Source: Thermodesulfobacteriota bacterium (lineage in GTDB: Bacteria > Desulfobacterota > Desulfobacteria > Desulfobacterales > Desulfosudaceae). From it: 53,595 nucleotides of DNA. Location: positions 1 to 53,595 of the forward strand of contig JBFMDX010000025.1 of NCBI GenBank assembly GCA_040753795.1. Direction: 5' to 3'. Shown here piece by piece: positions 2,301-34,206 of the stretch. Positions within the stretch are counted from its first letter, which is position 1; every line of letters starts with the position of its first letter. The notes below the pieces were generated by a model that made no database searches, was not told the DNA's origin, and was given only the letters and a program-made list of their open reading frames with translations. The position numbers and the translations under genes are program-made.

Positions 2301-2365
2301 ATGCCCCTGTTTTATCCGCAAGATCCGGCCGCCTCCGCCGCCCGGCGGAGAACCCGGCCTGTCAA

Positions 2366-2511
2366 TCAGGCAGGTCTTCTGACTCTCGAATCATCCTACC
2401 GGCCGCGCCTTCCCATTTTGCATCAATGCAACAGTGACATACGTGCGGCGTTCGTCCTCGATTACAGCGGCGGGTCCGCTCCCGATTTTCACGGGATTCC
2501 CTATTAAGCCA
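2366..2511 (-). promoter_or_regulatory. Cobalamin (B12) riboswitch
   Basis: Read on the minus strand the segment has the conserved blocks of the cobalamin aptamer in order: AATAGGGAATCCCGTGAAAA (P2/P3 entry, about 2486-2505), GACCCGCCGCTGTAA (about 2462-2476), the CACTG block (about 2432-2437), GGGAAGGCGC (2405-2414) and the 3' B12 box GAGTCAGAAGACCTGCC (about 2370-2386). Spacing fits the family. It lies just downstream of a sigma-70 promoter and upstream of a terminator, so binding of adenosylcobalamin should stop transcription of the DUF3450/TtpC operon. Ends are approximate because P1 was not folded. Confidence 0.93.
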
Positions 2512-2533
2512 ACGGCGCCTGATTTTTTCCCGT

Positions 2534-2562
2534 ATCCTATCGACAATTCGCTCGAATATCAA
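2534..2562 (-). promoter_or_regulatory. Sigma-70 promoter of the riboswitch operon
   Basis: On the minus strand TTGATA (2557-2562) and TAGGAT (2534-2539) are separated by exactly 17 nt. Transcription would start near 2527, about 15 nt before the first conserved riboswitch bases, which is the expected arrangement. Confidence 0.65.
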
Positions 2563-2593
2563 GGGGTTTGTTTCCGGGACCGAATGAAAACAG

Positions 2594-2621
2594 TTGACGT
2601 CGAAACAGGCCCTGATATAAA
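2594..2621 (+). promoter_or_regulatory. Probable promoter of radA-rlmE-yebC
   Basis: TTGACG (2594-2599) and TATAAA (2616-2621) are 16 nt apart, 50 nt upstream of the radA ATG. It is divergent from the riboswitch promoter with about 30 bp between the two -35 boxes, so the operons share a short control region. Confidence 0.55.
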
Positions 2622-2670
2622 AGATGAAGAAAATTTTTTCATATACTCCCCTTTGCCGCGGACATCCATA

Positions 2671-4035
2671 ATGAAAAATACAAAGACCGTCTTCTGCTGT
2701 CAAAACTGCGGGCACCAGTCGCCCAAATGGCTGGGGCGGTGCCCGGAGTGCGAAAGCTGGGGCACCTTCGTGGAAGAAGCGGTGGGGATCTCCGTCGGGA
2801 AAACCGCGCCGGTCATGGCCGGACGGGCCGCCAAACCGGTGCCCCTGGGAGAGGTGACCATCGGCGACGAGCAGCGGCGGAAAACGGGCATCAGCGAATT
2901 TGACCGGGCCCTGGGCGGCGGCATCGTAGCCGGCTCGCTGATCCTGATCGGCGGCGACCCCGGCATCGGCAAATCCACCCTCATGCTCCAGGCGGCCCAA
3001 CGGCTGGTGGAAGCCGGTCACAAGGTGCTGTACGTCTCCGGCGAGGAGTCGTTAAAACAGCTGAAAATGAGGAGCGAACGGCTGGGCGGCAGCCGCGCCG
3101 CCGACATCCTGGCGGTGGCGGAGACCAGCATCGAGACGGTGGTGGCCACGGCCGATGCGTTGCGGCCGGACGCACTGATCATCGATTCCATCCAGACCAT
3201 GGCCAGCCCGGATTTTTCCTCGGCCCCGGGCAGCGTCGGCCAGGTTCGGGAAGCGACCATGCGCCTCATGGTCATGGCCAAGCAGACCGGCGTTCCCGTT
3301 TTCCTCATCGGCCATGTCACCAAGGACGGCTCCATTGCCGGCCCCCGCACCATGGAACACATGGTGGACACGGTCCTCTATTTTGAAGGCGACAAGAACC
3401 AGGTCTTCCGGATTCTGCGGGCCGTCAAAAACCGCTTCGGCTCGACCAATGAAATTGGCGTCTTTGAGATGAAAACCGCCGGCCTGGATGAGGTAGCCAA
3501 CCCCTCGGCCGTCTTCCTTTCCGAAAAGCCGGAAAACTCCCCGGGATCGGTGGTCTCCGCCAGCATGGAAGGCACCCGGCCCATCCTGGTGGAACTCCAG
3601 GCCCTGGCCAGCCGCTCCGGCCTGGGCATGCCCCGACGGACCATCCTGGGGCTGGACCAGAACCGGGTCGCCCTGCTGGTGGCGGTCATGGAGAAAAAGC
3701 TGGGCATGGAACTGATGGGCTACGACGTGTTCATGAACGTGGCCGGCGGCGTGAAAATCAGCGAACCGGCCGTTGACCTGGGCATTATCGCGGCGGTGGC
3801 CTCGAGCTTCCTTGACCGGCCCATCAAGCCCGGAACCGTGGTGCTGGGGGAAGTGGGCCTGACCGGCGAAGTACGGGCCATCAACCATATTGAAACCCGG
3901 GTGGCTGAAGTCAAAAAGATGGGATTTAACAGCTGCCTGCTGCCCTACAGCAATGTCAAACGCATGCACAATGAAAAGCAAATCACCATCACCGGGGTAA
4001 AAACCATATCGGACGCCATCGAGGCCCTGTTCTGA
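2671..4035 (+). CDS. radA: DNA repair protein RadA
   Basis: A 454-residue RadA (Sms). It has an N-terminal zinc finger (C10, C13, C24, C27 in CQNCG...CPEC), a RecA-like ATPase with Walker A GGDPGIGKST at 94-103, the RadA signature KNRFG, and a C-terminal Lon-like domain. RadA is a branch-migration helicase-like ATPase acting on recombination intermediates. The frame is open further upstream to 2434, but I chose the ATG at 2671 because it matches the family N-terminus (zinc finger close to the start) and follows the promoter at 2594-2621. The upstream extension would run antisense through the riboswitch. It is the first gene of a plus-strand group with rlmE and yebC. Confidence 0.96.
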   Translation: MKNTKTVFCCQNCGHQSPKWLGRCPECESWGTFVEEAVGISVGKTAPVMAGRAAKPVPLGEVTIGDEQRRKTGISEFDRALGGGIVAGSLILIGGDPGIGKSTLMLQAAQRLVEAGHKVLYVSGEESLKQLKMRSERLGGSRAADILAVAETSIETVVATADALRPDALIIDSIQTMASPDFSSAPGSVGQVREATMRLMVMAKQTGVPVFLIGHVTKDGSIAGPRTMEHMVDTVLYFEGDKNQVFRILRAVKNRFGSTNEIGVFEMKTAGLDEVANPSAVFLSEKPENSPGSVVSASMEGTRPILVELQALASRSGLGMPRRTILGLDQNRVALLVAVMEKKLGMELMGYDVFMNVAGGVKISEPAVDLGIIAAVASSFLDRPIKPGTVVLGEVGLTGEVRAINHIETRVAEVKKMGFNSCLLPYSNVKRMHNEKQITITGVKTISDAIEALF

Positions 4036-4057
4036 TCCGCCGGGGGAAACACGTCTT

Positions 4058-4681
4058 ATGAGCCGCAACAACAACAATCCCTGGAGCCGCCCCGACTTTT
4101 ACGCCCGTCAGGCGAAAAAAGATCATTATCCGGCCCGCTCGGTATACAAGTTGATGGAAATACAAAAAAAATACAAGTTGCTCCGCAAGGGGGACAAAGT
4201 GGTCGATCTGGGCTGCGCCCCGGGTTCCTGGCTGCTGTACGCGGCCGAAGTGGTCGGGGACCAGGGAACGGTGACCGGTATGGACCTGACGGCCGTCACC
4301 ATCGGTCTGCCACCGCGGGCATCCGCTCATGTCATGGACATGTTCGAGCTGCGGTCGGACGACCCGCTTTTCTCGGGCAAAAAGGCGGACGTGGTGTTAA
4401 GCGACATGGCGCCGTCCACCACTGGTCATACCGGCACCGACGCGGCCCGGTCCCAGGATCTGGCCATGGCCGCCCTGACCCTGGCCGGGGAGATTCTCAG
4501 GCCAGGGGGGAATTTCGTCTGTAAACTTTTTCAGGGAGAAGATTTTAAAATATTTACGGATATGGTAAAAAAACAATTCAACCGGTCTGCGATCTTCAAA
4601 CCGGCCAGTTGCCGGAAAGACAGCCGGGAAACTTACATTATCGGATTAGGGAAAAAGGAGCCGGGCAATGTCAGGTCATAA
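4058..4681 (+). CDS. rlmE: 23S rRNA 2'-O-ribose methyltransferase RlmE (FtsJ/RrmJ)
   Basis: A 207-residue Rossmann-fold methyltransferase. The SAM motif is DLGCAPGSW (50-58), and the catalytic K-D-K-E tetrad is visible as K31, D116 (SDMAPS), K156 (VCKLFQG) and E191 (SRETYI). In the family it methylates U2552 of 23S rRNA in the 50S A-loop, a late assembly step. It starts 22 nt after radA and its end overlaps the yebC start by 14 nt, so the three genes are probably cotranscribed. Length is normal for the family. Confidence 0.95.
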   Translation: MSRNNNNPWSRPDFYARQAKKDHYPARSVYKLMEIQKKYKLLRKGDKVVDLGCAPGSWLLYAAEVVGDQGTVTGMDLTAVTIGLPPRASAHVMDMFELRSDDPLFSGKKADVVLSDMAPSTTGHTGTDAARSQDLAMAALTLAGEILRPGGNFVCKLFQGEDFKIFTDMVKKQFNRSAIFKPASCRKDSRETYIIGLGKKEPGNVRS

Positions 4682-5405
4682 TAAATGGTCGTCCATCAAA
4701 CACAAAAAACAGGCGGCGGACGCGAAACGGGGACAGGCGTTCACCAAGCTGATCAAGGAAATTACCGCGGCCGCCCGGGCGGGCGGCGGAGACATCAACG
4801 CCAACGCCAGGCTGCGCAGCGCCATCGCGGCCGCTAAAATGGAAAACATGCCCAAGGACAATATGGACCGGGCCATCAAAAAGGGAACCGGCGAGCTGGA
4901 CGGCGTGAATTACGAAGAACTCACTTATGAAGGCTATGGCCCAGGCGGGGCGGCCATCTTTTTAGAATCCCTGACGGACAATAAGAACCGGACGGTCAGC
5001 GATATCCGCCATATTTTCAGCCGCCATGCCGGCCGGCTGGCGGAGAACGGCAGTGTTGCCTATCTGTTCAAGAAAAAGGGGTATTGTGAAATCGACAAGG
5101 CCACGGCCGATGAAGACAAAGTGATGGAAACGGCCATTGAAGCCGGCGCCGAGGATGTCCGGGAGGCGGAAGGCAGTTTTGAGGTCATTACGGCGGTGGC
5201 TGATTTTGAAGCCGTGAAGCAGGCCCTGACCGACGCGGGCATCACCTGCTCTCTGGCCGAAATCACCATGCTGCCGCAGAATACCATCGACCTGGGCGAG
5301 AAGGAGTCGGAGCAGATGTTAAAGCTCCTGGAAGCGCTGGACGACTGCGACGACGTTCAGAAGGTTTATACCAACGCTAACCTGGATGAAAGCGCCGGCG
5401 CCTAA
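4668..5405 (+). CDS. yebC: YebC/PmpR family regulator or translation factor
   Basis: A 245-residue protein with the invariant YebC N-terminus MSGHNKWSSIKHKK and the conserved GYGPGG motif around residues 90-95. The family is described both as DNA-binding regulators (PmpR) and, more recently, as ribosome-associated factors that help with difficult peptide stretches. The linkage to rlmE fits a translation role. The start overlaps rlmE by 14 nt and has a GGAG-type RBS inside rlmE. In many genomes yebC precedes ruvC; here the following gene is convergent nadA. Confidence 0.94.
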   Translation: MSGHNKWSSIKHKKQAADAKRGQAFTKLIKEITAAARAGGGDINANARLRSAIAAAKMENMPKDNMDRAIKKGTGELDGVNYEELTYEGYGPGGAAIFLESLTDNKNRTVSDIRHIFSRHAGRLAENGSVAYLFKKKGYCEIDKATADEDKVMETAIEAGAEDVREAEGSFEVITAVADFEAVKQALTDAGITCSLAEITMLPQNTIDLGEKESEQMLKLLEALDDCDDVQKVYTNANLDESAGA

Positions 5406-5413
5406 ATTCTTGC

Positions 5414-6298
5414 CTACCGCAACGCCAGCATCCGCTGGACCGCGTCAAGGGCCCGCTCCTGGATGTCGGCCGGCACCTTGACTTCAGGGCCCATGTTTTC
5501 AAGGCAGTCGACGATCATTTGCGGGGTGATGCGCTTCATGTCCGGGCAGATCATTTTTTCCGAAACCGGATAAAACGTCTTTTCCGGGCAGGCTTTCCGC
5601 AGGGCGTGCATCAGGCCGTTTTCGGTGGCCACCAGAAACTGATCGGCTTCCGAGTCTTGAGCATATCGCAGCATGCCGGAGGTGCTCAGCACCGCGTCGG
5701 CCAGGTCCAGCACCTCGCCGCGGCATTCCGGATGGGCCATGACCACCGCGTCCGGGTGCCGCTTTTTGGCCGAGAGGACATCCGTTGCCCGCAGGGCATC
5801 ATGGATGGGGCAACAGCCGTCCCAGAGATGAATTGTCTTGTCGGTCAGGGAGGCGGCGTAAGACGCCAGGTTCCGATCCGGCGTCATCAGCAGTTCCGCC
5901 TCGTCCAGGCTGTTGACCACCTTGACGACATTGGCCGAGGTGCAGCAGACGGTGGACATGGCCTTGACCGCGGCCGACGAGTTCACGTAGGTCACTACCG
6001 GCATGTCCCCCAGTTCCTTTATTTTCGCCCGCAGGGCCGGAACCGTGACCATGTCGGCCATGGGGCAGCCCGCGTCCGGCGCCGGGAAGAGGATGGTCTT
6101 GTCCGGGCAGACAATGGAGGCGGTTTCGGCCATGAAATGTACGCCGCAGAAGACAATCACCTCGGCATCGGTGGCCGAAGCCCGAATGGACAGCTCCAGC
6201 GAGTCGCCGCACAGATCGGCCAGGTCCTGAATTTCCGGCGGCTGGTAGTTATGCGCCAGAATGATGGCGTTGCGTTTTTTTTTGAGCGCTTCGATCAA
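5414..6298 (-). CDS. nadA: Quinolinate synthase A
   Basis: A 294-residue NadA, close in length to the short Thermotoga form. It condenses iminoaspartate with dihydroxyacetone phosphate to quinolinate in NAD synthesis, using a [4Fe-4S] cluster. The three cluster cysteines appear as C78 (GCPMAD), C163 (CCPIH) and C251 (ICPDMK), and the substrate motifs AHNYQPPE, YVNSSA, TSAN and HPEC are all present. The start is a TTG at 6298 overlapping the lolA stop in the sequence TTGA. No nadB or nadC is nearby, and its partner in this operon is lolA, which is functionally unrelated. Confidence 0.95.
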   Translation of the reverse strand: MIEALKKKRNAIILAHNYQPPEIQDLADLCGDSLELSIRASATDAEVIVFCGVHFMAETASIVCPDKTILFPAPDAGCPMADMVTVPALRAKIKELGDMPVVTYVNSSAAVKAMSTVCCTSANVVKVVNSLDEAELLMTPDRNLASYAASLTDKTIHLWDGCCPIHDALRATDVLSAKKRHPDAVVMAHPECRGEVLDLADAVLSTSGMLRYAQDSEADQFLVATENGLMHALRKACPEKTFYPVSEKMICPDMKRITPQMIVDCLENMGPEVKVPADIQERALDAVQRMLALR

Positions 6299-6972
6299 TT
6301 CTTCGGATCCAGCAGCAGGACATCGGCGTTGGCCGGGGGTTCAAAGATAAACAGGGCGTTTCCCAGGGGTTCTCCCAGGCGGATGTCTGAAAAAATAATC
6401 CGGGTGGTGTCTTCATAAGTATTCATGGTTTCTATTTCCTCGACCAGACCGCTCTGCCGGGAAACATAGAAGTAAATCGCCGCCAGGTCACCTGTTTTCT
6501 TGTTGGGCACCAGCTTCAAGGCATAAAAGCCTTCGTTGGTCCGGTTCGAGTCGATGGTCACCTGATTTTTTTCGCTGATGGTGTTCAACGCCGCCAGAAA
6601 ATTGACGCCCTGACCATCGTCGAACAGGGCCGGAGTATCACCGGTCATGACCTGATTTTCAAGCGGCTTGTAGATCCAGAGCTTTTTCCCGTCGGTAATG
6701 ATCTGCTGGGGGTCGGGGGTGATATACTCCCAGCGCATCATTCCCGGATCCTTGAAAAAGGCCTTGCCGGCAGCCGTGTCGGTTATGTCCATTGCCTTGA
6801 GCGTGGACACCTGTTCGAAACGGGCGGAAAAACTGCCGCTGGCATAGGTAGACTGAATCTGCTTCAGCAGATCCGCGGCCGAAGCCGGCGTCGAAGGGGC
6901 CGGGTCGGCCCAGGACCAGACGGCCGTCAGGCAGACTGACAGCCAGAAACAGGTAACCGCGACTTTTTTCAA
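6295..6972 (-). CDS. lolA: Outer-membrane lipoprotein carrier protein LolA
   Basis: A 225-residue periplasmic protein with a signal peptide (MKKVAVTCFWLSVCLTAVWSWA) and the LolA pattern: SFSARFEQ, GKAFFKDPGMMRWEY, TDGKKLWIYKP and the C-terminal FEPPANADV. LolA takes lipoproteins from the LolCDE ABC transporter and carries them across the periplasm to the outer membrane, which confirms a Gram-negative envelope. It is translationally coupled to nadA (4-bp overlap) and lies 60 bp downstream of the PilZ gene on the same strand. Confidence 0.93.
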   Translation of the reverse strand: MKKVAVTCFWLSVCLTAVWSWADPAPSTPASAADLLKQIQSTYASGSFSARFEQVSTLKAMDITDTAAGKAFFKDPGMMRWEYITPDPQQIITDGKKLWIYKPLENQVMTGDTPALFDDGQGVNFLAALNTISEKNQVTIDSNRTNEGFYALKLVPNKKTGDLAAIYFYVSRQSGLVEEIETMNTYEDTTRIIFSDIRLGEPLGNALFIFEPPANADVLLLDPKN

Positions 6973-7538: not shown

Positions 7539-7783
7539 GAAACGATTCCCTGGCGCCGATGGGTTTGAACAGGAACGCAAACATGCCGGGCACATGATTA
7601 GCGCTACGGGCCAACAGGCAAAACCGATACGTTTTTTCGGTACACATTTGTTTCACTGCATCACCACAAAAACGCTCTCCCGAATCAGATTCAAGTGAAG
7701 GCGGCCGGAGAGGACCTGCCATGGGAAAAAAAACATTCTTGTTTTCAAATGGTTTTTAAAAACATGGCTGTGAATCCTTCAAG

Positions 7784-7799
7784 TGGCATGAGCCTTGCT
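7784..7799 (+). promoter_or_regulatory. Sigma-54 (RpoN) promoter
   Basis: TGGCATGAGCCTTGCT matches the sigma-54 consensus TGGCACGNNNNTTGCW at all but one defined position, with GG (7785-7786) and GC (7797-7798) the required 10 nt apart. It is about 105 nt upstream of the desulforedoxin-knuckle gene and points towards it. The rest of the 7524-7915 gap is AT-rich with no convincing gene. An enhancer-binding-protein site would be expected upstream, but I could not define one. Confidence 0.72.
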
Positions 7800-7915
7800 A
7801 ATCACTGACAAAATTATCAACCGGTTTTTTTATTAAAAAATGCCGGCGGGGTCGGATCGGAAAACGCCAAGCCCGGTGGCAGCCGAAACAAAAACAAAAT
7901 AAGGAGAACAAAACC

Positions 7916-8245
7916 ATGAAGATTGAAATCGTAAAAAATGTCGTCGATTTTACCCCCGAGAATGCCGATGAACAGTCCAAGCTCGAGGCCCTCTGGCGGC
8001 TGATGGTGGATTGCGTCCGCTTCAACAAGAAACTGGTTCCCATGGGTGAATATGTCCCGCAGAAAAAGAACAAGGCCAGTTTTGTGATTGAAGGCATGGC
8101 CGGCGGCAAGACCACCGAGTACCCGGAAGTGCATGTGGAGGCAGACTGCCGCTGTTACTGTCAGACCTGCAACAAGTATGTCGAGCTTAAGAAAGGGGAC
8201 CGCATTCCGCCATGCTGCGGCAAGCTGATGGAAGTGCTGGACTGA
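7916..8245 (+). CDS. Small protein with a C-terminal desulforedoxin-type iron knuckle
   Basis: A 109-residue protein. Residues 1-75 are not recognised (predicted alpha/beta, no cysteine ligand pattern). The last 30 residues carry C82-x2-C85-x14-C100-C101-G, the spacing of the Fe(SCys)4 centre of desulforedoxin and of the N-terminal domain of desulfoferrodoxin. Two more cysteines, C78 and C80, sit just before the knuckle. The superoxide-reductase motifs of full desulfoferrodoxin are absent, so I do not call it SOR. It has a clear RBS (AAGGAG), follows a sigma-54 promoter and precedes a ferredoxin and rubrerythrin, which suggests a role in oxygen or peroxide defence or small-scale electron transfer. 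Confidence 0.75.
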   Translation: MKIEIVKNVVDFTPENADEQSKLEALWRLMVDCVRFNKKLVPMGEYVPQKKNKASFVIEGMAGGKTTEYPEVHVEADCRCYCQTCNKYVELKKGDRIPPCCGKLMEVLD

Positions 8246-21999: not shown

Positions 22000-23391
22000 G
22001 TGGCTGAAAAACCAGGAAAACACCAGCGAAAGGATACTAAAAGCCGGGCCGACCGGTCCCGGGAACGGATTCTGTCCGCTGCCAGATCCGTTTTTTCCCG
22101 CTACCCTTACGGCGCCGCCGGCGTAAGAAAAATCGAAGGCGCGGGGGAATTCAACTATGCCCTGATCCGTTATTACTTCGGCTCCAAAAAAGGCCTGTTT
22201 GAAGCGGTTTCCCAGGAACTGGTGAATGAATACAGCCGTTATCTTCTGCCCCTGATCAGGGACACCCTTCGGAACACCGATCCAAAAACAGCCCTGAAGC
22301 GGTTCGTGGACGGGCTGTTTGATTTCGGATTTGATCACCCGGACGGTCCGGCCACCATCATGCTCAACATCGGTCAGGCCCAGTTGTTCGACGACACCCT
22401 GCTGGGGCTTTCCGCCATGCGCCGGTATGTTGCCGAGGTCACGGAAATATTTACCGCCTCCATTCCCTTTGCGGCCGACGAGAGGAAAATCGCCATGTGG
22501 GTGTTTGTCTTCACTATTCTGGCGGCTAACTTCATCGGCGCCCGGTCATTTCATGCCGCCGCCCTGGGCCTGAATCCGGAAAGCCGTCAATACCGGCAGT
22601 GGGTAAAGAAGGCGTTGCTGGCCATTTTCGAGCCGGTTCTGGACCGGTTTCTGCACGGCCCGGGGATTGATCCCGAGATCACCATTCCCCGGGAGATTGA
22701 ATCGGTTCTTCCCGAACCGCCGGCCAGCAGGGAAAAATCGGCCGGAAAACGAACCAAGGGGGACCTTACCCGGCAAAAAATCCTGGATGCCGCCCTGTCG
22801 ATTTTTACCCGGCGGCCATACAGCACGGCCAGCATCCGGAAAATCGGCCAGGAGGGCGGTTTTGACTTTACGATTATCCACCATTACTTCCCCACGAAAA
22901 AGGATCTGGCCGAGGCCGTTGGCAACCGGTGTTATGACGATTTCTTCCGGCAGTCCGCTCTATTCTGGGTGTCACTGGCGCAAAAAGGCGCCAGCGGCCG
23001 GGTCCCTCTTTCGGACGGGTTGTCCGTCTATATCAACAGCCTGCTGGGCTACCTGTTCGACTGCCATCACGGTCCGGCCATCATGATGCAAAATATCGCC
23101 CAACCGAATCCTCAGCAGATTCTGCCGGCCTTCAATCTGTCCCTGCGCTTTTATACGGACATTTCCACCCGGCTCAAAGTTCTGCTGTCCATCCGGGCGC
23201 CGGAGGAGGAAATCCGCATGTGGCAGTACTGTCTGGTGGTCCTGATTTCCAATTGCGTCGGCGCGCCGGACTATCCGGCCCGGATCATCGGTCTCTCCCC
23301 CCGGAAAGACGAATACCGCCGGTGGATCGCCGACGCCCTGATCTTTCTGTTCTATCCCGGCCTGAAGAAGCTGGTGACGACTTCCCCTTAA
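22000..23391 (+). CDS. Tandem TetR-family regulator: two complete TetR units in one protein
   Basis: About 463 residues from a GTG at 22000; the frame is open to an ATG at 21898 that would overlap the TM2 gene, so the exact start is uncertain. The first half has a TetR helix-turn-helix (RILSAARSVFSRYPYG...YYFGSKKGLFEAV) and a ligand domain ending MWVFVFTILAANFIGA...WVKKALLAIFEP. The second half repeats the plan: RQKILDAALSIFTRRPYS...HHYFPTKKDLAEAV and MWQYCLVVLISNCVGA...WIADALIFLFYP. A Pro-rich linker of about 25 residues joins them. TetR proteins normally work as homodimers of about 200 residues, so this looks like an internal duplication giving a covalent pseudo-dimer. Its stop overlaps that of the convergent crotonase gene by 4 bp. 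Confidence 0.85.
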   Translation: MAEKPGKHQRKDTKSRADRSRERILSAARSVFSRYPYGAAGVRKIEGAGEFNYALIRYYFGSKKGLFEAVSQELVNEYSRYLLPLIRDTLRNTDPKTALKRFVDGLFDFGFDHPDGPATIMLNIGQAQLFDDTLLGLSAMRRYVAEVTEIFTASIPFAADERKIAMWVFVFTILAANFIGARSFHAAALGLNPESRQYRQWVKKALLAIFEPVLDRFLHGPGIDPEITIPREIESVLPEPPASREKSAGKRTKGDLTRQKILDAALSIFTRRPYSTASIRKIGQEGGFDFTIIHHYFPTKKDLAEAVGNRCYDDFFRQSALFWVSLAQKGASGRVPLSDGLSVYINSLLGYLFDCHHGPAIMMQNIAQPNPQQILPAFNLSLRFYTDISTRLKVLLSIRAPEEEIRMWQYCLVVLISNCVGAPDYPARIIGLSPRKDEYRRWIADALIFLFYPGLKKLVTTSP

Positions 23392-26035: not shown

Positions 26036-28741
26036 TTACATTTTAAGCGCGGACAGGGCGGCAGCGGAAAGGGCGGCCAGACGGAATGACTTCTGCCGTC
26101 CGGCGATGACCGCATGAATTTCCACTTTACTTTCCAGAAGGCCTCGCAAAAGGGCTGCGAATTGTTGGGCCGCGGCCGGTAATCGCTCGCCGACCGGGGA
26201 TGCCAGGGCCGCCGCGGCGCAAGCCCGGGAGGGATCCTGCCCGGCAGCGGACAGGGCGGCGGTCAGGTCGTCGGGATAGACCAGGCCGGCCAGCCGGATG
26301 GCCGCGGGCGTAAGCAGCCATTCGCCCTCGGTGTCGCGGTCGTACATGGGCAGGTTGTGGAACAGCGACTCCACCGGCGGGATGGCCGGCCGGGGCAGTA
26401 TGCCTTTTGCCTGAAGCTCGAAGACCGGCTGCGGCAGGCGGGGGGCCAGCAGGGCGTGGGCCTCGGAACGCAGCACCGGATCTTCGCCGGGATCGGCCAG
26501 GGCGGCAAAAAGCGCCCGGCGGGCCCGGTCGCCCTGGTTGATCAGCATGATCATGGCGTGATAAGCGTGGAGCCGGGTCCAGGCACGGATCCGGCGGCCG
26601 GCGATGATCTTTTCCAGGCCGGCGCCGATGGCTGCCTCGTCTTCCGGCGAAAGATATCCCCGGATGGTCTCGGCCAGCTTGGCGGCGTAAGTGTCTTCAC
26701 CCGGCCAGGCGGGTTCCGCCTGGGCGGCCGCGATCCGATTCAAGGAAACGAGCAGATCCGTGGCGGCCGGTCGCTGGTCCGGCTTCATCTGCTGCCAGAC
26801 GGCACGATGGGCGGAACTGGCTTCCCAGGCCACGGTCAGGTTCCGGGCGCGGTCGTTATACCGGCGAATATCGGCTATTTTTTCCCTCAACAGGGGCTCG
26901 AACGCCACGGCCAAATCCGGTTTCATACGGATAAATGACTCGGACAGGGCAATGGCCGAAAGCACGCGGCCGAGGTCAGCGTCGGGATCCCGCAACAGGG
27001 CCAGGACCTCTTCTTTTTCAATGCCGGCAATTGACTGGCCGGGCACCAGATCGGTAATGGAGGGCACGGAAGCACGCTGGACCACCGTGCTTCGCAGCTC
27101 GGCCAGGCGATCCGGCATCCAGCGGGTCAGGGCGTCCCGGATGGCGGTCTTGAATTCTTCCGGTTCAGCCGGATCGTTGAGCGCGGCGATGAGCAGGTCA
27201 TCGGCCCGACGGGCCGCGGCCTGCCCCTCGGGCGAAGGGCGAGGCTGGTTGTGACTGGCAGCGGCCGCGTCCGTGGCCAGCTTTGACAGGGCTTCCCGGG
27301 CCTGAAGGCGTTCTTTCACGGGGCGGGAGCGATCGGCTACTCCGGTAACGAGCAGGTCACCCACCCGCTCCACCGGAATCTCGTTGGCGGCCAGGGAACG
27401 GAAATGCATCCCCAGGGAAACACCCAGGCCGGCCGAGAGCATGGCCTCGATTACTTCGGTCAGGTCCTCCCACGAGCCGGTGCCGGGCACGGCAAACAGA
27501 AGGGAGTGGACGTCACGCGCCCGGGCGCACAGCCGGGTCGCCACCGGCGGCGGCTCGGTGCGCTTGTCCCGGCACAGGGGCAGCACGTCCGCGGCAAAGG
27601 CCGCGGCCTCTTCCGGCGCCACAAAGGCAAGGATACGGATCACCTCCAGGGCGGTTATCACTTCGGTGACGTCGGTCGAGATTAGTCCGACGCGGATGGC
27701 GGAGGGGGCGACGGTCAAGGAGGCCAGGGATCTGTCCTGGTCAAGCACACCGGGCCATTTCAGCGGAGACGGCAGCGGATCGACGGCTAGGCCCCGCTCG
27801 CGGCGCAACTCGCCGACCAGACCGGGAAAAATTCTCTGGCTATTCCAGACATGGCGAAGGCGCGTTTCAGCCGGCAGGGCGCGGTCGAGAATACGATCGC
27901 TTAAGGCCTTGCGCAGCAAATCCATACGGTCTCCGGCCAATCGGCATTGCAGAGCGAGATCGCAGGCCTGGTCGATCAGACCGGCCACGACCAGACGCCT
28001 GACCGCCGCGGCCTGAATCAGGTCCAGTCGGGCCATATGGTCATAAGGCGTCGGGCGCACCCCGGCCGAAAACCGGAACCGGCGGGCATAGGCGTTCACG
28101 GCTATTTCCAACAGGCGTTTGCGGCGAAGCTCGACATCGACAATGTTGAGGACAAGACGCAGGGCCAGGGCCTCCTCGGCCGCCGGACCGCGTTCAATAT
28201 CCATCACCAGGGCCAGCAGGCGCTTGTCGATTTGTTCGTCGGGCGGCAGCCAGCCCATCAGGAGCAGGGCATCGGGAACCTGGTCTTCCGGTCCTTCAGC
28301 CTTTTCCCACAGGCCCGTTTCGCCGATAACGGCGGCCGTGGAAAGTCGCTGCTCGACCGGCCAGCTCCGCACCCAGGAGGGTCCGATGGCGACTGGTGGT
28401 TCGGCGTCCGGCGACGGCGCGGGAAAAATGAACGGCTCTTCCGAAACCAGGGTGACGCCTTCCGGCAGTTCTCGGGTAATAAAAATGTCCAGTTGGTCGG
28501 GATGGCGGGTGTGGCGGCGGAAAAAGGCCAGTGACCGCGCGGCCAGGGTAGCCCATGCCCCGGCGGCCAGCGGGCATGGCGCCTCGCCTGTCGGCCAGAG
28601 ACCGAAGGTGATGGCGCCCTCCACGGCTTCAAAATCCGTAATATCTCCGCCGGCCAGGGGATCATCGGCCGCGTAAAAGACAGGGTCCCATTCCAGGGCC
28701 AAGGCTTCACGGCAGGCAAGGCAAACGATATAGATATTCAT
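26036..28741 (-). CDS. Large helical protein of unknown family (901 residues)
   Basis: An uninterrupted 901-codon gene with normal GC-rich codon use. I do not recognise the family. Residues 1-120 look alpha/beta, with a CxxC (IVCLACRE) at residues 7-10 and a further Cys at 56. From about 160 to the end it is almost entirely helical, Ala/Leu/Arg-rich, with helix pairs reminiscent of HEAT or TPR solenoids (ADRSRPVKERLQAREALSKL; ADPGEDPVLRSEAHALLAPR). There is no signal peptide or clear membrane segment. It starts 27 bp after the stop of a TetR gene on the same strand, so the two are probably one transcription unit. A scaffold or adaptor role would fit a solenoid, but nothing in the sequence gives a reaction. 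Confidence 0.75.
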   Translation of the reverse strand: MNIYIVCLACREALALEWDPVFYAADDPLAGGDITDFEAVEGAITFGLWPTGEAPCPLAAGAWATLAARSLAFFRRHTRHPDQLDIFITRELPEGVTLVSEEPFIFPAPSPDAEPPVAIGPSWVRSWPVEQRLSTAAVIGETGLWEKAEGPEDQVPDALLLMGWLPPDEQIDKRLLALVMDIERGPAAEEALALRLVLNIVDVELRRKRLLEIAVNAYARRFRFSAGVRPTPYDHMARLDLIQAAAVRRLVVAGLIDQACDLALQCRLAGDRMDLLRKALSDRILDRALPAETRLRHVWNSQRIFPGLVGELRRERGLAVDPLPSPLKWPGVLDQDRSLASLTVAPSAIRVGLISTDVTEVITALEVIRILAFVAPEEAAAFAADVLPLCRDKRTEPPPVATRLCARARDVHSLLFAVPGTGSWEDLTEVIEAMLSAGLGVSLGMHFRSLAANEIPVERVGDLLVTGVADRSRPVKERLQAREALSKLATDAAAASHNQPRPSPEGQAAARRADDLLIAALNDPAEPEEFKTAIRDALTRWMPDRLAELRSTVVQRASVPSITDLVPGQSIAGIEKEEVLALLRDPDADLGRVLSAIALSESFIRMKPDLAVAFEPLLREKIADIRRYNDRARNLTVAWEASSAHRAVWQQMKPDQRPAATDLLVSLNRIAAAQAEPAWPGEDTYAAKLAETIRGYLSPEDEAAIGAGLEKIIAGRRIRAWTRLHAYHAMIMLINQGDRARRALFAALADPGEDPVLRSEAHALLAPRLPQPVFELQAKGILPRPAIPPVESLFHNLPMYDRDTEGEWLLTPAAIRLAGLVYPDDLTAALSAAGQDPSRACAAAALASPVGERLPAAAQQFAALLRGLLESKVEIHAVIAGRQKSFRLAALSAAALSALKM

Positions 28742-28768: not shown

Positions 28769-29470
28769 TCACAACGACCGTCGTTTTTCGATGGCCTGCT
28801 GAATGAGCTTTTCCAGGGGCGGGGCAAAAATATAAAGAAGCGCTTGCTTGACCCAGCTTCTGTATTCCTTTGATCGCGGTTCCATCCCCAGGGCCTTGCC
28901 ATGATAAGCGGCCGCGCCGACAAAGCCCGTCTGCAGGGCCATCATGGTATAGCTCCACATGGACACTTCCGCCCGCATGGTCAGGACGTTGTTTTTTTTC
29001 AGAAAGATTGCCTCGATTTCCCGGAAGAAACGGGTGAAGTAATCAAACCCAGGCAGCTCGGGATCGATCTTCATGTGACCCGTGTTCCGGGTGAGCACTT
29101 CCATGACATCAGGGTTTTCAAACAGATAATCCATGGCCCGGTCAAAATAAATCTTCAGGCCCTCGCGGGAAGGCAGGCGTTCCAAACCGTCTATCCATTC
29201 CAGGTAAGCGGTGATCAGTTCCCCGTAAAGCTGTTCGCACACGGCCCGGAACAACTCGGCCTTGGTAAAATAATGATGGATGATGGAAAAGTCGAACCCA
29301 CCCTCTTCGCCGATCATGCGGATGCTGGCGGCGTGATAGGGGTGCCGGGTGAAGACCCGGCGGGCGGCGGCGATGATTCTCTGCCGGGTGGCCTCGCTTT
29401 TGGGTGTCGCCCCGGTTCCGGCTGGAGCCGGCGGGGATTTTTTTTTCCTGCCCGCTGTTTCATTTTTCAT
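28769..29470 (-). CDS. TetR-family regulator, homologous to both halves of the tandem TetR
   Basis: A 233-residue TetR. The helix-turn-helix is at about residues 30-75 (RQRIIAAARRVFTRHPY...IHHYFTKAELFRAV). The C-terminal part ends MWSYTMMALQTGFVGA...SWVKQALLYIFAP, which matches the end of each half of the tandem protein at 22000-23391. I took the ATG at 29470; the frame is open to 29584, but that would overlap the AraC gene. It precedes the 901-residue gene on the same strand and is its likely regulator. Confidence 0.88.
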   Translation of the reverse strand: MKNETAGRKKKSPPAPAGTGATPKSEATRQRIIAAARRVFTRHPYHAASIRMIGEEGGFDFSIIHHYFTKAELFRAVCEQLYGELITAYLEWIDGLERLPSREGLKIYFDRAMDYLFENPDVMEVLTRNTGHMKIDPELPGFDYFTRFFREIEAIFLKKNNVLTMRAEVSMWSYTMMALQTGFVGAAAYHGKALGMEPRSKEYRSWVKQALLYIFAPPLEKLIQQAIEKRRSL

Positions 29471-29517: not shown

Positions 29518-30570
29518 TCACATCGTTTTTTCCTTTGATGTTCTCTTTTTCCTGCGGTAATGAAGCGGCGTCTTGCCTGTCCACGATTTAAAGGCGCGAT
29601 AAAAATTAGCCACATCACTATAGCCGACAATGCCGGCGATTTCTTCAATGGAGAGTTCAGTTGACTGCAAAAGATCGCAGGCTTTTTTCCTGCGAATGCC
29701 TTGCGCCAGTGATTTATAACTCACGCCCTCGGCCGCCAATCGGCGCTTGAGCGTCTGATCGCTCATGTTCAGGAGTTGGGCCAGCTGCGACCTGGAGAGA
29801 ATGCCCTTGTCTTTGCGCTGAAGGGTCGACTTGGCCAGCTCCGTTGTGGTTGTCAGCATGGTGAGCTGCTCAAGGGTGTGACGGCAATCGGTTTCATAAA
29901 TCTTTTTGGTCAGCGTATTGGCGCATGGCAATGGTCTGGTCAGGTAGCTGCTATCGAACAGGATTTGCGTCTCTTCGGCATCAAAGACAATGGGGCAGTC
30001 AAAGATTTTTTTATATTCCTCCGCGTATTCCGGTTTGGGATAGGCAAGACGGATTTTTATCAATCGCACCCGTTCCCGCAGGATTTCACAGCAGATATTA
30101 TAGGCGCCGACCATATGCATTTCGTAGCGGTAGCGACGGCTGCAACCCATATCGATGAGATCAACAAAACCAAGTTTGGCCATATCGCCCTGAACATCAA
30201 GGATAATTTGGAAAGGCAACGATAAGAGATCGGCAAAATCAAAAGCCATTTTAAAGGCGTCAATGGCAGTGGCACAGCTGTTGATCGCCATTATCCATTT
30301 TCCCAGCTGACCGATATTGATGCGTTCTCCAATGTGCAGCCCTAACGCCGGATAGGAAATAACGTCGAATAACTGTTGAGTGATCTCATATTGCTGTTCA
30401 AAGCTTATCAATCTGTCCGGGTTGTCAAAATCCGCTTTCTCCAGCCCTTTGCTTGAGAGTATCGGCGCCGTATCAATACCATTCTCTTCCGCCCATTGGA
30501 TGACAACGCGCAAGTGATGCGCAGAGCGATAGGGCGCGATTACAGGCTTTGATTTCAAATAAAGTCTCAT
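29518..30570 (-). CDS. AraC-family transcriptional regulator
   Basis: A 350-residue protein. The N-terminal part (about 15-200) resembles the arabinose-binding-like domain of the OruR/ArgR-type AraC group. The C-terminal AraC DNA-binding domain (about 255-345) has both helix-turn-helix units, the second reading ELSIEEIAGIVGYSDVANFYRAFKSWTG. It is divergent from the phosphatase-fold gene at 30848 and a candidate regulator of it. The gene is AT-rich: 30001-30060 holds 22 G+C in 60 bases, against over 60% in neighbours, which suggests recent acquisition. Confidence 0.92.
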   Translation of the reverse strand: MRLYLKSKPVIAPYRSAHHLRVVIQWAEENGIDTAPILSSKGLEKADFDNPDRLISFEQQYEITQQLFDVISYPALGLHIGERINIGQLGKWIMAINSCATAIDAFKMAFDFADLLSLPFQIILDVQGDMAKLGFVDLIDMGCSRRYRYEMHMVGAYNICCEILRERVRLIKIRLAYPKPEYAEEYKKIFDCPIVFDAEETQILFDSSYLTRPLPCANTLTKKIYETDCRHTLEQLTMLTTTTELAKSTLQRKDKGILSRSQLAQLLNMSDQTLKRRLAAEGVSYKSLAQGIRRKKACDLLQSTELSIEEIAGIVGYSDVANFYRAFKSWTGKTPLHYRRKKRTSKEKTM

Positions 30571-30720
30571 AGGTTAACCGATACTATGCTTTACCGGGCA
30601 GCTGATCCAAAAAGACAATATTTTGATCCCCTACGGCAATTGTAAATGATACCGGCATCAGGTAGCGTCAAACGAAATTATCGAGATGAGCCATAACACA
30701 AGAATGGATGAAACTCAATT

Positions 30721-30890
30721 CCATATCATTTTCTCCACGAAAGTGGAGTTCTTCTTGACAAGGAGCATTGTGGCCGGTATGATTTCCACGTCCGTAGAAA
30801 AATGTGGGCGGGCAATAACTTTTAACTGGTTATGAGGAGGGGCTGTTATGAAAAAACCGACTAGGGGGTTGCTGCTGGTGATCATGGCGC
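30721..30890 (+). repeat. Duplicated leader, copy A (promoter, 5'UTR, RBS and first 13 codons)
   Basis: This stretch and 32561-32728 are direct repeats about 1.84 kb apart. Shared blocks include TTGTGGCCGGT, TCCGTAGAAAAATGTGGGCG (20 identical bases), TTATGAGGAGGG and the coding start MKKxTRGLxLVIMA. Similarity ends just after ATGGCGC in both. The sequence contains a palindrome (30733-30748), promoter boxes and the RBS of the gene at 30848. Confidence 0.9.
30733..30783 (+). promoter_or_regulatory. Near-consensus sigma-70 promoter with an upstream palindrome
   Basis: TTGACA (30755-30760) and TATGAT (30778-30783) are exactly 17 nt apart. A perfect 6-bp palindrome with a GAAA centre (CTCCAC at 30733-30738, GTGGAG at 30743-30748) sits 6 bp upstream of the -35 box and may be an activator or repressor site. 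Transcription would begin near 30790, giving a leader of about 58 nt with a strong RBS (GAGGAGGGG). Confidence 0.75.
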
Positions 30891-32551
30891 GGCAAAGACT
30901 TTCCGGTGTTTTTCCGCTGCTGTTGATATTTTTTCTTCTGATCGTTTTTTCCGTACAGGCATCTGCTCAAGCCTCATCAAAACTCGTTGTCATAGCGATT
31001 GATTCCCTTGATCCTGGTTATTTGTATCTTGATGCCAGGGGCAATGCCGGCGGCCGCCCCGGTAACTGGCTCATGCCGAATGTCCGCGCTTTTATAGATG
31101 GCGGTGTCTGGTTTGAGCACACGCGGGATTACCTGCCGTCAGCCACGGACATGAACCATCTGAACGCTCTGGCCGGCACCAACAGCGGCCAGCACGGTAT
31201 ACTCATGGTCACGAATCAATTGTTCGATTGGAATGACGACGGAACGCCGAATAACGTTTTCTCCAGCCTTGACTGGACACGGGACGACCAGGGCAGACCG
31301 GTGGACACACTGTTCAAGGCATGGAAGAGAGTCTATCCCGAATCAACAATCATGTTTGCTTCCGGCAAAGAATGGATTGAGAATGAATTTAATACAGCCG
31401 ATTCCGGCATAGACTTGTTCCTCTCCGGCGCAAATTATCCCGATTACATATCAGCCCCGGAAAAGCGCAGTTTTTACAACCCGCCGGGGATGATTCCCGT
31501 TGCGCCATCGCTTTGGCAGGTGATTTTCTGTGAATATTTATATGGATCAAGCCCGGAAAAATTCCCCAGCGATTACTGGATGGTGGATTCATCACTGAAA
31601 ATAATGAACCGGGAGAAGCCGGATTTCGTCTTCATGCTCCTGGCGGAATGTGATGATTTACAACATGGTCTCGGTTCTGCCCGTAATCCAAAAGATTTTA
31701 GTCTCATCACTGATATCGCTAAAAACAATGCGTATGTGTATCGGAAGCCGATTATTAATGGGATGAAGGATGTGGATATCCAGTTCGGAAAACTTATAGC
31801 CGGAATACGTTCCATGCCGGAATACCAAGACGCCGTCATCGTACTCTATAGCGACCACGGACACCTGACACATAATTACACAGCCGCCTCTAATGTTGTT
31901 TTCAGCACAAACGTCGACAATATACTCCGCGACAAAGGTGTCATCTCCGACGAAGAGAAGTCCTATGTAAATTACCAGGCATTAACCGGCGCCAGCTTTG
32001 GCCAAATTTGGTTCAACCGGACAACGCTGGCGGAAAGACGCGCTGTCGCTGCACGCGCAAAAACCGTTCTGGTAGATCACCGGGTGTTTAATCCGCAGAC
32101 TGGCCGCATGGAATGCCCCTGGTATGTTCTTGACATCAACGACATGAAGAACGGCGTGCCGGGTGTTTGCGGTCCCGGTGAACTTTATCATCCCCATTTT
32201 GCCGATAATAATGAGCCGGGAACGTTGCATTGGCCGGATATCACGCTGTTATTGAAAAACGGATGGCAACTGCCGGCTACTGCCGGATTGGCCAACAATA
32301 TCGGCGCCTCACTGCCGTCCTGGCTTCCGCCGTTGAATTATTTTTTGGGCGGGCATGGTTCGATTGACTCGATGTCTATCGTCATGGCCTTCCAGGGGCC
32401 CGGCATGAAGATCGGCAAGGTAAATGCCGATCCGGCATACGCGAAGAACTATCGTATTGCCGATATCGCCGTGACGCTGGCGGAGATATTCGGTCTTGAA
32501 CTCAGAAGCACAACGGTCGGCATAGACCGGTCAACCGATCTGAACTGGTGA
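30848..32551 (+). CDS. Exported alkaline-phosphatase-superfamily hydrolase (phosphodiesterase-like)
   Basis: A 567-residue exported protein. The metal and catalytic motifs of the superfamily are visible: AIDSLD near the mature start, the nucleophile region PSATDMN, CDDLQHGLG, YSDHGH and GGHGSID. It probably cleaves a phosphate ester or diester in the periplasm; the substrate is unknown. The N-terminus is odd: residues 1-13 come from the duplicated leader, and a complete signal peptide (MARQRLSGVFPLLLIFF...ASAQA) begins at the inner ATG 30884. The gene is AT-rich (31681-31740 has 21 G+C in 60), unlike the next gene. Confidence 0.85.
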   Translation: MKKPTRGLLLVIMARQRLSGVFPLLLIFFLLIVFSVQASAQASSKLVVIAIDSLDPGYLYLDARGNAGGRPGNWLMPNVRAFIDGGVWFEHTRDYLPSATDMNHLNALAGTNSGQHGILMVTNQLFDWNDDGTPNNVFSSLDWTRDDQGRPVDTLFKAWKRVYPESTIMFASGKEWIENEFNTADSGIDLFLSGANYPDYISAPEKRSFYNPPGMIPVAPSLWQVIFCEYLYGSSPEKFPSDYWMVDSSLKIMNREKPDFVFMLLAECDDLQHGLGSARNPKDFSLITDIAKNNAYVYRKPIINGMKDVDIQFGKLIAGIRSMPEYQDAVIVLYSDHGHLTHNYTAASNVVFSTNVDNILRDKGVISDEEKSYVNYQALTGASFGQIWFNRTTLAERRAVAARAKTVLVDHRVFNPQTGRMECPWYVLDINDMKNGVPGVCGPGELYHPHFADNNEPGTLHWPDITLLLKNGWQLPATAGLANNIGASLPSWLPPLNYFLGGHGSIDSMSIVMAFQGPGMKIGKVNADPAYAKNYRIADIAVTLAEIFGLELRSTTVGIDRSTDLNW

Positions 32552-32560
32552 TTCGATATT

Positions 32561-32728
32561 CCTTATCTTTTCTCCATGAAAATGGCGTTTTCCTAGGCAA
32601 GGGATGTTGTGGCCGGTTTGATCTTTACATCCGTAGAAAAATGTGGGCGGGCTGTAACGCTTAATCGATTATGAGGAGGGCGGTTATGAAAAAGTCGACC
32701 AGAGGTTTGTCGTTGGTAATCATGGCGC
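32561..32728 (+). repeat. Duplicated leader, copy B
   Basis: The second copy of the leader described at 30721-30890, in front of and into the gene at 32686. The promoter boxes are weaker here: TAGGCA (32594-32599) and TTTGAT (32617-32622), still 17 nt apart. The palindrome is changed to CTCCAT-GAAA-ATGGCG (32572-32587), with one compensating pair change and one mismatch. Confidence 0.9.
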
Positions 32729-34206
32729 TGCTGGTGACAGCGGTGCTCTCCGGCCAGGCGTTGGGCATGGGGTCGCTTCCGCCGCCGCCGGATTTCACCC
32801 ATGAACCGCCCCGGAACCCGTTTGTCGCGGACTCTACCTGGCCCATGAGCCACTGCCATCCTTACTGCCAGGCGTCCTCCCCCTACCCCGGCCCGGAAAC
32901 GTCCGACCTTGGCACCACCACTTCCTATACCATGGGCATGCCCGGCCTGATCACTCTGGCGGTCTCCGGCAAATATCCGGACGGCGGCCGGGTGGTCTGG
33001 GGCAGCTCCTCCACCGACGTGTTCAAGGCCGACACCTCGTTGAACTACATCAAGGCCATGAAAAAGGAGAGCCTGACGCTTTCCTCGGTGTTTTCCCCCG
33101 ACGAGATGCTTTCGGGCGCCTACACACTGGTGGATAAGGACAATATTTTCTACATGCCGCGGTTCACCAAAATATTCGCCTTTGGCGACGCCACCGCCGG
33201 CAAGCGCTATTCGGGCATCGTGATCAAGCGGACCTATGAAATCCCGGCCGGACAGTTGGCCGCCGCGGAAGAAAAAATCGTAGGGCTGTCCATGACCTGG
33301 GACGGCATGCTGGTATTCGCCACCAGCCAAGGCCTGGTGGGAGCGGTTTCCCGGGATTTCACCCGCGCCTATTACTACCGGTTCGGGCCGGACGAGCAGA
33401 TATCCAACTCCATTGCCTGCGACGAGGCCGGCGGCATCTATGTGGTGACCAATCTGAACATGTACCGGGTGCAGTGGACAGGCAGCCGGCTGACCACGGA
33501 TCCCGCCCTCGGCGGGTGGACGGCCGGCTATGAAACCGGCGAGGCCTCCGGCGTACGCCTGGGTGCCGGGTCGGGCTCCACGCCGACGCTAATGGGCAGC
33601 GGGACCGGGGACAAGTTCGTGGTCATTACCGACGGCCAGGACGTCATGAACCTGGTCCTGTTCTGGCGGGACAAAATTCCGGCCGACTGGCAGCAGATCC
33701 CGGGGACCAAGACCCGGCGCATCGCCGCCCAGGTGCCGGTGACCTTCGGCGATCCGTATGCCACGGACACCCTGTCGGAGCAGTCCGTCTGCGTCCGGGG
33801 CTACGGCGCACTGGTCGTCAACAACCAGTTGAAAACTTCGCTGAACAACCAGGTCATCAGCATCCTCCTGTCCGGCGTAAATATCATCGCCCCCTACGGA
33901 GCGGAGAAATTCGAATGGAACCCGGCCACCCGGAAGATGAACAGCGTCTGGGTCAACCGGGAAGTGAGCCTGCCCAACGGCATCCCGTCCATGAGCCAGG
34001 CCACCAATCTCGCCTACTGCGTCGGCCAGGACTGGCTGGGGTCGTGGACTTTCGAAGCCCTGGACTGGACCACCGGCAAGTCCGTGTTCAGCCATGTCTA
34101 CGGCGCCACCCCCGCCTTCAACAGCGCCTATGCCGCCACGGAAATCGGGGTGGAGGGCGCCCTCTATACCGGCACGATTATGGGCATGGCGCGCATGACT
34201 TATTAA
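32686..34206 (+). CDS. Exported protein of unknown function, probably a beta-propeller
   Basis: A 506-residue protein with a signal peptide (MKKSTRGLSLVIMALLVTAVLSGQALG). The rest is beta-rich with repeated strands of the type GGIYVVTNLNMYRVQW, DGMLVFATSQGLVGAV and GALVVNNQ, and few cysteines, which suggests a PQQ- or YVTN-like propeller. I do not recognise the family. The ATG at 32686 has a strong RBS (GAGGAGGG); an ATG five codons upstream lies in the RBS itself. GC content is high (33301-33360 is 63%), so unlike the phosphatase it matches the rest of the genome. It lies 134 bp after the phosphatase and is followed by a Cys-rich membrane protein. Confidence 0.8.
   Translation: MKKSTRGLSLVIMALLVTAVLSGQALGMGSLPPPPDFTHEPPRNPFVADSTWPMSHCHPYCQASSPYPGPETSDLGTTTSYTMGMPGLITLAVSGKYPDGGRVVWGSSSTDVFKADTSLNYIKAMKKESLTLSSVFSPDEMLSGAYTLVDKDNIFYMPRFTKIFAFGDATAGKRYSGIVIKRTYEIPAGQLAAAEEKIVGLSMTWDGMLVFATSQGLVGAVSRDFTRAYYYRFGPDEQISNSIACDEAGGIYVVTNLNMYRVQWTGSRLTTDPALGGWTAGYETGEASGVRLGAGSGSTPTLMGSGTGDKFVVITDGQDVMNLVLFWRDKIPADWQQIPGTKTRRIAAQVPVTFGDPYATDTLSEQSVCVRGYGALVVNNQLKTSLNNQVISILLSGVNIIAPYGAEKFEWNPATRKMNSVWVNREVSLPNGIPSMSQATNLAYCVGQDWLGSWTFEALDWTTGKSVFSHVYGATPAFNSAYAATEIGVEGALYTGTIMGMARMTY

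Follow-up and report, generated by a model that had tools for sequence, protein, structure and literature searches.

Two neighbouring and unrelated genes in a member of the Desulfosudaceae begin with similar DNA, and the question is how they came to share it. The stretch analysed, referred to throughout as the window, is 53,595 nucleotides long and comes from contig JBFMDX010000025.1 of GenBank assembly GCA_040753795.1 (Thermodesulfobacteriota bacterium). A first-pass annotation, made from the sequence alone, had described a leader duplicated in front of both genes, and had proposed promoter capture, in which the leader of the second gene was copied upstream of an incoming phosphatase gene.

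The genes of the locus

The main features are listed here; G and L numbers denote genomes and loci respectively.

28769–29470, − strand: TetR-family regulator (Pfam TetR_N), with a 78% identical (amino acid) ortholog in L034 of the genome G002; divergent from and adjoining the leader in G002, parted from it by the insert in the window
29518–30570, − strand: AraC-family regulator (Pfam PF12625 and PF12833), 81–85% identical (amino acid) to those of L039, G395 and G401; divergent partner of the propeller gene in G395 and G401
30571–30720, + strand: AraC upstream region, common to L039, L122 and L121 (121, 118 and 113 of 151 columns identical); candidate AraC binding region
30718–30893, + strand: leader copy 1 (probably captured), comprising promoter, 5′UTR, RBS and the first 14–15 codons, ahead of PDE; 79–80% identical to copy 2
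30848–32551, + strand: PDE, type I phosphodiesterase/nucleotide pyrophosphatase family, 567 aa (Pfam PF01663, E 7.2e-19); 90% identical in DNA to L039
32558–32731, + strand: leader copy 2 (resident), ahead of the propeller gene; a homologous leader is present in G002, which has no PDE
32686–34206, + strand: resident "propeller" gene, 506 aa, 81% and 75% identical (amino acid) to G002 and L039 respectively

The start codon of TetR was picked by comparison with G002. Beyond this gene, at 26036–28741 on the − strand, there is a reading frame of 901 aa in GC-rich DNA, which matches no Pfam family.

PDE matches PF01663 over residues 46–482 with 69 bits (cut-off 23), and is on this basis a member of the family and a predicted enzyme; it has no match at E 0.001 among PDB sequences. 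The 506-aa protein matches no Pfam or NCBIfam family and no PDB sequence, and its structure model has a pLDDT of 33.6 and is unusable. "Propeller" is the label given to it in the first-pass annotation, backed by neither a family nor a PDB match, and is used here as a name. Both proteins are probably exported, judging the N-termini by eye and not with a signal predictor, and are likely to share a task outside the cytoplasm.

Two copies of one leader

The two copies (30721–30890 and 32561–32728) are identical in 134 of 170 alignment columns. They were detected as direct repeats in two pieces (30729–30841/32568–32680 and 30840–30893/32678–32731, each 80% identical), and comparison of the window with itself by BLAST gives one leader repeat, 30718–30893 against 32558–32731, with 79% identity and E 1.5e-34. 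The local alignment of 30721–30883 with 32561–32724 scores 195, compared to a mean of 34.6 (SD 5.8) for shuffled sequences, and none of 500 shuffles scored as high, so that chance similarity was dropped as an explanation. The duplication described in the first-pass annotation is thus real. By segment, the identity is 27/34 upstream of the promoter, 22/29 in the promoter, 51/64 in the 5′UTR and 34/43 in the codons. The 5′UTR does contain an identical run, which is the longest between the copies and is 23 nt rather than the 20 noticed earlier; at the given overall identity such a run is unremarkable (P 0.096), and it was dropped as a candidate for a special conserved element.

Similarity ceases at ATGGCGC (30890, or 30893 by BLAST), where the first-pass annotation had placed its end, and takes in 14 common codons, one more than was counted there. 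The genes that follow copies 1 and 2 have GC contents of 0.506 and 0.625 and encode unrelated proteins, one in PF01663 and one in no Pfam family, as expected for the different families that had been proposed, and the gene bodies have no similarity. Between codons 1–14 of the two copies dN is 0.08 and dS 1.6 (from few sites), which fits continued translation of both.

A third copy was sought in the whole genome (4.75 Mb in 41 contigs) and not found. Among the matches listed in this search, the other 14 are all at most 25 nt long, and a 21-nt core pattern, allowing up to 3 mismatches, occurs twice, with no occurrences for the controls. The leader has no match at E 1e-5 in 72,556 plasmid records. 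In 95 other genomes, with at most 8 candidates scored for each, there are only three matches of 19–31 nt (E 0.002–0.01); absence there is weak evidence, because the same search missed the diverged leader of G002. A known RNA family in the leader was also considered and dropped, the sole match being weak, antisense and inside PDE. The window's genome has a distant propeller paralog (39–41% amino acid identity) with another N-terminus, at 9879–11033 of L036 (contig C5), where the leader search found no copy.

These searches bear on the idea of a mobile promoter or small repeat element spreading ahead of unrelated genes. Putative mobile promoters, reportedly described by Matus-Garcia et al. in 2012, are said to be promoter-bearing repeats that lie ahead of unrelated genes, with several dispersed copies per genome. 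The window resembles them in having a promoter-bearing repeat ahead of unrelated genes, and differs in that its two copies are adjacent and run into coding sequence, with no dispersal seen. The idea draws support from PMC8049555, in which short repeats are assumed to act as promoters. In the present case it is scarcely credible: the genome of 4.75 Mb has just two copies, separated by 1.84 kb; plasmids gave no match and the 95 genomes only the three short ones; the repeat holds in-frame codons conserved as protein; and the distant locus L039, described below, uses another sequence. A dispersed repeat or mobile promoter should be present in several dispersed copies, and was dropped on finding two adjacent ones. 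Within the scope of these searches, the leader was not found to stand ahead of many unrelated genes.

Native association of the leader with the propeller gene

G002 belongs to the same family as the genome of the window, and has the locus on one contig. Its orthologs of TetR and propeller are divergent, with 287 nt between the aligned blocks. The propeller ortholog starts with MKKTTKWVSVICVAL, compared to MKKSTRGLSLVIMAL in the window, and carries a homologous leader and the signal start MKKTTKW... The intergenic DNA of G002 scores 85 and 86 against the two window copies, where 300 shuffles gave means of 53.6 and 52.4 (SD about 6) and maxima of 71 and 74. No match to PDE was found in the G002 genome, and AraC was not found in its 19.9-kb stretch. 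G001 (87% complete) likewise has no match to PDE.

Because G002 lacks PDE and has a homologous leader ahead of its propeller ortholog, we assign the leader (leader A) to the propeller gene as its native owner and regard the PDE-side copy as derived. A relative without the phosphatase gene was the comparison suggested in the first-pass annotation, which had assigned the leader to the propeller gene, and this assignment holds. The window has another TetR-family region, at 22768–22894, to which the G002 TetR gene is 73% identical in DNA (10402–10528 of L034).

Transfer of PDE and AraC between distant lineages

A parallel to the insert is in L039 (JAPLJP010000143.1, titled "Deltaproteobacteria bacterium", genome G096), where AraC, PDE and propeller occur in the same order as in the window. 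DNA identity between the two is 85% for AraC and its upstream region, 90% for the body of PDE and 72% for the body of the propeller gene. At 4-fold sites it is 0.832 for PDE, 0.653 for AraC and 0.310 for propeller; the window and G002 propeller genes are 0.631 identical at such sites. The distance of L039 was judged by RpoB identity, and a Myxococcota label, which follows its record title, was not relied on. RpoB of the window's genome is 0.56 and 0.57 identical (amino acid) to that of L039's genome, in two contig pieces of 438 and 855 codons, and 0.78 identical to that of G002. RpoB of G395 and G401 is 87–91% identical to that of L039's genome.

Since PDE is 90% identical in DNA to a locus whose genome has RpoB only 56–57% identical in amino acids, its origin is read as horizontal. 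It is concluded from these comparisons that PDE and AraC have moved between very distant lineages. The incoming phosphatase gene of the first-pass annotation is thereby supported, also by the lack of a match in G001 and G002, and has to be extended: the AraC regulator and its upstream region were acquired as well. The propeller gene has probably also moved between those lineages, at an earlier time; in a tree of propeller sequences the window groups with G002 (100/98), and L039 with the pair G395 and G401 (100/98).

The source of PDE may be different from either. For the window and L039 respectively, GC3 is 0.577 and 0.547 in PDE and 0.842 and 0.465 in the propeller gene. A third source is possible because the GC3 of PDE fits neither propeller gene, a point that is weakened by the value of 0.657 for TetR in the window. 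AraC and PDE may not have arrived together, given the difference in their 4-fold identity to L039 (0.65 and 0.83). The window's genome contains what appears to be a truncated second copy of PDE, in L037 (contig C38), where a frame of 104 aa lies at 1012–1326 and 1081–1389 is about 50% identical to the end of PDE.

The PDE comparison also bears on whether the two genes arose by tandem duplication of one gene, with the bodies diverging afterwards. The genes are indeed adjacent, on the same strand and with the same start. However, the two bodies are unlike in family content, each has relatives of its own, and that of PDE is 90% identical to L039, which makes the likelihood of such an origin negligible.

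The same arrangement with another leader in L039

In L039, PDE also lies behind a leader of the local propeller gene. The copies LB1 (5024–5107) and LB2 (6843–6926) are identical in 81 of 84 positions. A relation between this leader and that of the window is not detectable: for copy 1 against the PDE leader of L039, 57 of 500 shuffles score as high, and for copy 2 against the L039 propeller leader, 380 of 500.

In G395 and G401 the propeller gene and AraC are immediate divergent neighbours and PDE is absent between them, so that these are empty sites. L039 and G401 align without a break from AraC through LB1, a stretch that takes in the RBS and the first 23 codons (90.7% over 1444 nt); the alignment resumes at LB2 and runs into the body of the propeller gene (82.9% over 1522 nt). 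Because of this continuity on both sides, PDE in L039 is read as sitting behind the native leader, with an 84-nt duplicate serving the propeller gene. The alternative that the leader moved from PDE to propeller in L039 was dropped, in view of the empty sites.

LB1 is 89.9% identical to G401 and 88.6% to G395 (79 nt), which is below the 81/84 between LB1 and LB2. Since the two copies in L039 are closer to each other than LB1 is to these relatives, the duplication is probably younger than the split from G395 and G401, although the margin is small over the 69 coding nt (65/69 between LB1 and LB2, 63/69 and 61/69 to G401). The spacer between AraC and propeller in L039 (4837–5020) and in G401 (L122, 6609–6740) contains, by eye, what we take to be a remnant of a LacI-type DNA-binding motif (AGVSTATV), which is not seen in the shorter spacer of G395.

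Among the loci that were compared using tblastn, the window and L039 are the only ones to have both PDE and propeller. The loci compared had flanks of about 1.5 to 10 kb, and the PDE matches L104–L107 and L127 were left out of the comparison. Counting the centre genome, the propeller family was matched in 5 of 96, 10 of 389 and 12 of 297 genomes, and the PDE family in 3 of 96, 10 of 389 and 2 of 297, in sets that overlap and were searched with different thresholds.

Promoters, hairpins and a candidate operator

The predicted control elements are as follows.

30733–30748, + strand: terminator-like hairpin at the upstream end of copy 1, from a terminator scan; function putative
30755–30783, + strand: sigma-70-like promoter of copy 1, TTGACA-17-TATGAT (11/12 match to consensus)
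30783–30800, + strand: imperfect inverted repeat TTTCCACG-TC-CGTAGAAA, spanning the point where transcription is expected to begin, read from the sequence; candidate repressor operator
32572–32587, + strand: hairpin in copy 2, just after the PDE stop, similar to that of copy 1 with one pair broken; seen by eye, absent from the terminator scan
32594–32622, + strand: matching promoter position of copy 2, TAGGCA-17-TTTGAT, weakened (8/12 match to consensus)

Copy 1 has a strong match to a sigma-70-like promoter, and is predicted to drive PDE. G002 has TTGACA-16-GATAGT (10/12) at the matching place. The first-pass annotation had expected both genes to be under the same control; the weakened match in copy 2 (8/12 against 11/12) argues against this. 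Read-through from PDE may now supply part of the propeller gene's transcription, because the scan found no terminator on the + strand between the two genes; the hairpins at 30733–30748 and in copy 2 count against this reading. The inverted repeat over the transcription start may be an operator for TetR, which is the divergent neighbour of the leader in G002. An inverted repeat of another sequence, TCCACA-CC-TGTGGA, is found at the same place there.

The better promoter of copy 1 is what one would expect if copying had gone in the opposite direction, from a leader of PDE's own to the propeller gene. Against this stand the leader of G002, ahead of the propeller gene in a genome with no PDE; the N-termini of 15 other PDE relatives (two pairs of which are identical), most of them twin-arginine-like and none resembling leader A by eye; and the PDE leader of L039, which is the native propeller leader of G401 and G395. 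We consider this direction very improbable.

A possible second signal sequence in PDE

The N-terminus of PDE in the window, MKKPTRGLLLVIM-ARQRLSGVFPLLLIFFLLIVFSVQASAQ, has two hydrophobic stretches with a charged dip between them.

30891–30951, + strand: second hydrophobic stretch of PDE, likened to the propeller signals of L039, G395 and G401 (codon-shuffle test of 30884–30951)

Against the signals of the L039 clade, 30884–30951 has local scores of 45.5–49, compared to codon-shuffle means of 26–29, with 0 to 6 of 2000 shuffles as high (G401 2, G395 0, L039 propeller 1, L039 PDE 6). Against the propeller signal of the window the number is 61 of 2000, and against the G002 signal 773. Using simple shuffles and slightly longer stretches, the window propeller signal against the L039 PDE signal (score 41) and the G002 signal against the L039 propeller signal (score 36) each gave 0 of 500 as high, and the window against the L039 propeller signal 3 of 500. 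The likeness thus appears partly generic to both gene families, which weakens the point. PDE may first have been joined to a propeller leader of the L039 type, with leader A added ahead of it later, a suggestion that rests on about 60 nt of hydrophobic codons and is held loosely.

Repeats in other loci

A search for self-repeats (at least 60 nt, E 1e-6, spacing 300–6000) in 97 loci, totalling 755,947 bases, gave matches in 16. Overlapping loci, 31 in number, had been left out by identifier, and L126, a duplicate of L039, entered unfiltered. Fifteen repeat pairs were checked by script for gene starts. In two of these, the window and L039, both copies run through the RBS and start codon into unrelated genes. 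The repeats in L097 (11978/14440 and 11164/15987) are also at two starts, possibly of paralogs or chance frames, and those in L069, L113 and L125 reach a start with just one of the copies, or on the opposite strand. The check omitted L126, the repeat arrays in L046, L048, L052 and L103, and the array at 1595–2556 of L125; repeats read by eye were those of the window, L039, L097, L113, L121 and L125. The sample is centred on the PDE and propeller families and so gives no genome-wide rate.

Two of these loci have features of their own. In L097 (genome G099) a c-di-GMP-I-GGC riboswitch (RF03167 matches at 4355–4429 and 7768–7842, 65–72 bits) lies ahead of a propeller homolog (from 8044), and another ahead of a different gene (from 4530), so that in some hosts second messengers may control the propeller family. 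In L125 (genome G555) a propeller homolog lies between direct repeats of 301 nt (5907–6207 and 7826–8125, 93% identical), which take in the last part of one neighbour and the first part of the following gene, as though the homolog had been inserted with a long target duplication.

Discussion

The arrangement in the window is probably the result of a natural capture of promoter and leader, in which the resident leader A was copied ahead of the acquired PDE while one copy was kept by the propeller gene. Promoter capture, as proposed in the first-pass annotation, is supported by the leader of G002, the horizontal origin of PDE, the lack of a third copy and the unlike gene bodies.

We infer the following order of events. 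An ancestor of the window's genome would have had TetR, leader A and propeller gene, as in G002. AraC with its upstream region, and PDE, would have arrived from a distant L039-like lineage, between TetR and the propeller gene. Leader A (promoter, 5′UTR, RBS and 14 codons) would then have been copied, to give one ahead of PDE and one ahead of the propeller gene, the copy being joined in frame near the start of PDE so as to place 14–15 residues of the propeller signal ahead of an older one. If that older signal is of the L039-clade type, it would point to an earlier capture of the same kind in that clade. The likely benefit is that expression, translation start and export of PDE would be matched to the propeller protein, with the resident gene left intact. 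The ages of the parts are at odds with one another, which counts against this reading: between the window and L039, AraC is more diverged than PDE; the leader codons look older than the split of PDE; and LB1 and LB2 look younger over their 84 nt. The occurrence of PDE beside the propeller gene in two genomes only counts against it as well.

The boundaries of the copies are well defined. The left edge of copy 1 is at 30719–30722, where the AraC upstream homology to L121, L122 and L039 ends, and its right edge is at 30890–30893, at the in-frame join near PDE's own start; on the 3′ side of PDE, homology to L039 ends at the last codons (32544). The copying could have occurred by insertion with duplication of the target leader, through template switching at short shared sequences; by a tandem duplication, one part of which was then lost; or by gene conversion, with leader A overwriting an older leader of PDE. 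Comparison of the window with itself shows no other repeat of at least 60 nt at the leader spacing, and therefore no leftover second piece of PDE or propeller.

PDE may alternatively have been joined to a leader of type A in an unsampled relative and have arrived with it second-hand, the 20% difference between the copies then being the divergence of donor and recipient. The identity of 134/170 permits divergence between species, and the leader codons look older than, or as old as, the split of PDE (from few sites), their synonymous divergence being greater than that of PDE from L039. However, only the three matches of 19–31 nt were found in 95 other genomes, which is weak evidence, as that search overlooked the G002 leader, and one capture elsewhere would still be required, so that the event is only shifted. 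We regard this version as unlikely, though a more serious contender than the other alternatives. None of the counter-evidence restores chance similarity or a dispersed repeat.

Taking capture of the resident leader as the preferred reading, the pairing of PDE with a propeller leader may have been selected rather than be accidental, because the distant L039 shows the same arrangement with a different leader. A bolder proposal, which we offer tentatively and consider unlikely, is that PDE, on reaching a new genome, settles directly behind its partner's secretion leader through an event that duplicates this leader whatever its sequence (170 nt in the case of the window and 84 nt in that of L039). 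If so, selection would keep the pairing with the partner's export signal and not the promoter sequence, and PDE of the window would represent two stacked captures.

PMC11111574, which cites Li and Bock (2019) and Anderson and Roth (1978), describes capture of promoters by horizontally transferred genes, through deletion or tandem duplication, under laboratory selection. As in the window, a foreign or silent gene there gains an adjacent promoter, and duplication can bring this about; unlike that system, the window is from a natural genome, the RBS and signal codons were captured too, the adjacent donor gene keeps its own copy, and the same outcome is seen with another leader in the distant L039. 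Experimental evolution of E. coli has yielded promoter co-option mutations (PMC5526668), which are similar in that expression is gained from neighbouring promoters. They differ in working through promoter-capture deletions or read-through of terminators, where the window would have achieved this by copying a leader. Promoter capture, including capture by duplication, is thus already known (PMC11111574; PMC5526668), as are mobile promoters (PMC8049555). What appears to be new is a captured leader that includes signal codons, with the donor's copy retained; a partial literature search found no description of a captured leader including the signal peptide, or of the arrangement in the window, which is weak evidence of novelty.

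Laboratory selection has been used to study how foreign genes come to be expressed in a new host (PMC11111574; PMC5526668), and the window presents a natural outcome whose parts can still be read: the donor leader is still resident, relatives of either genome have empty sites, and a very distant genome has reached the same outcome with a different leader. Neighbouring genes that are unrelated except for a common leader are a signature that can be searched for to obtain a rate. For exported proteins, the finding points to partner genes as donors from which promoter, ribosome site and export signal can be taken over together, as a single unit.
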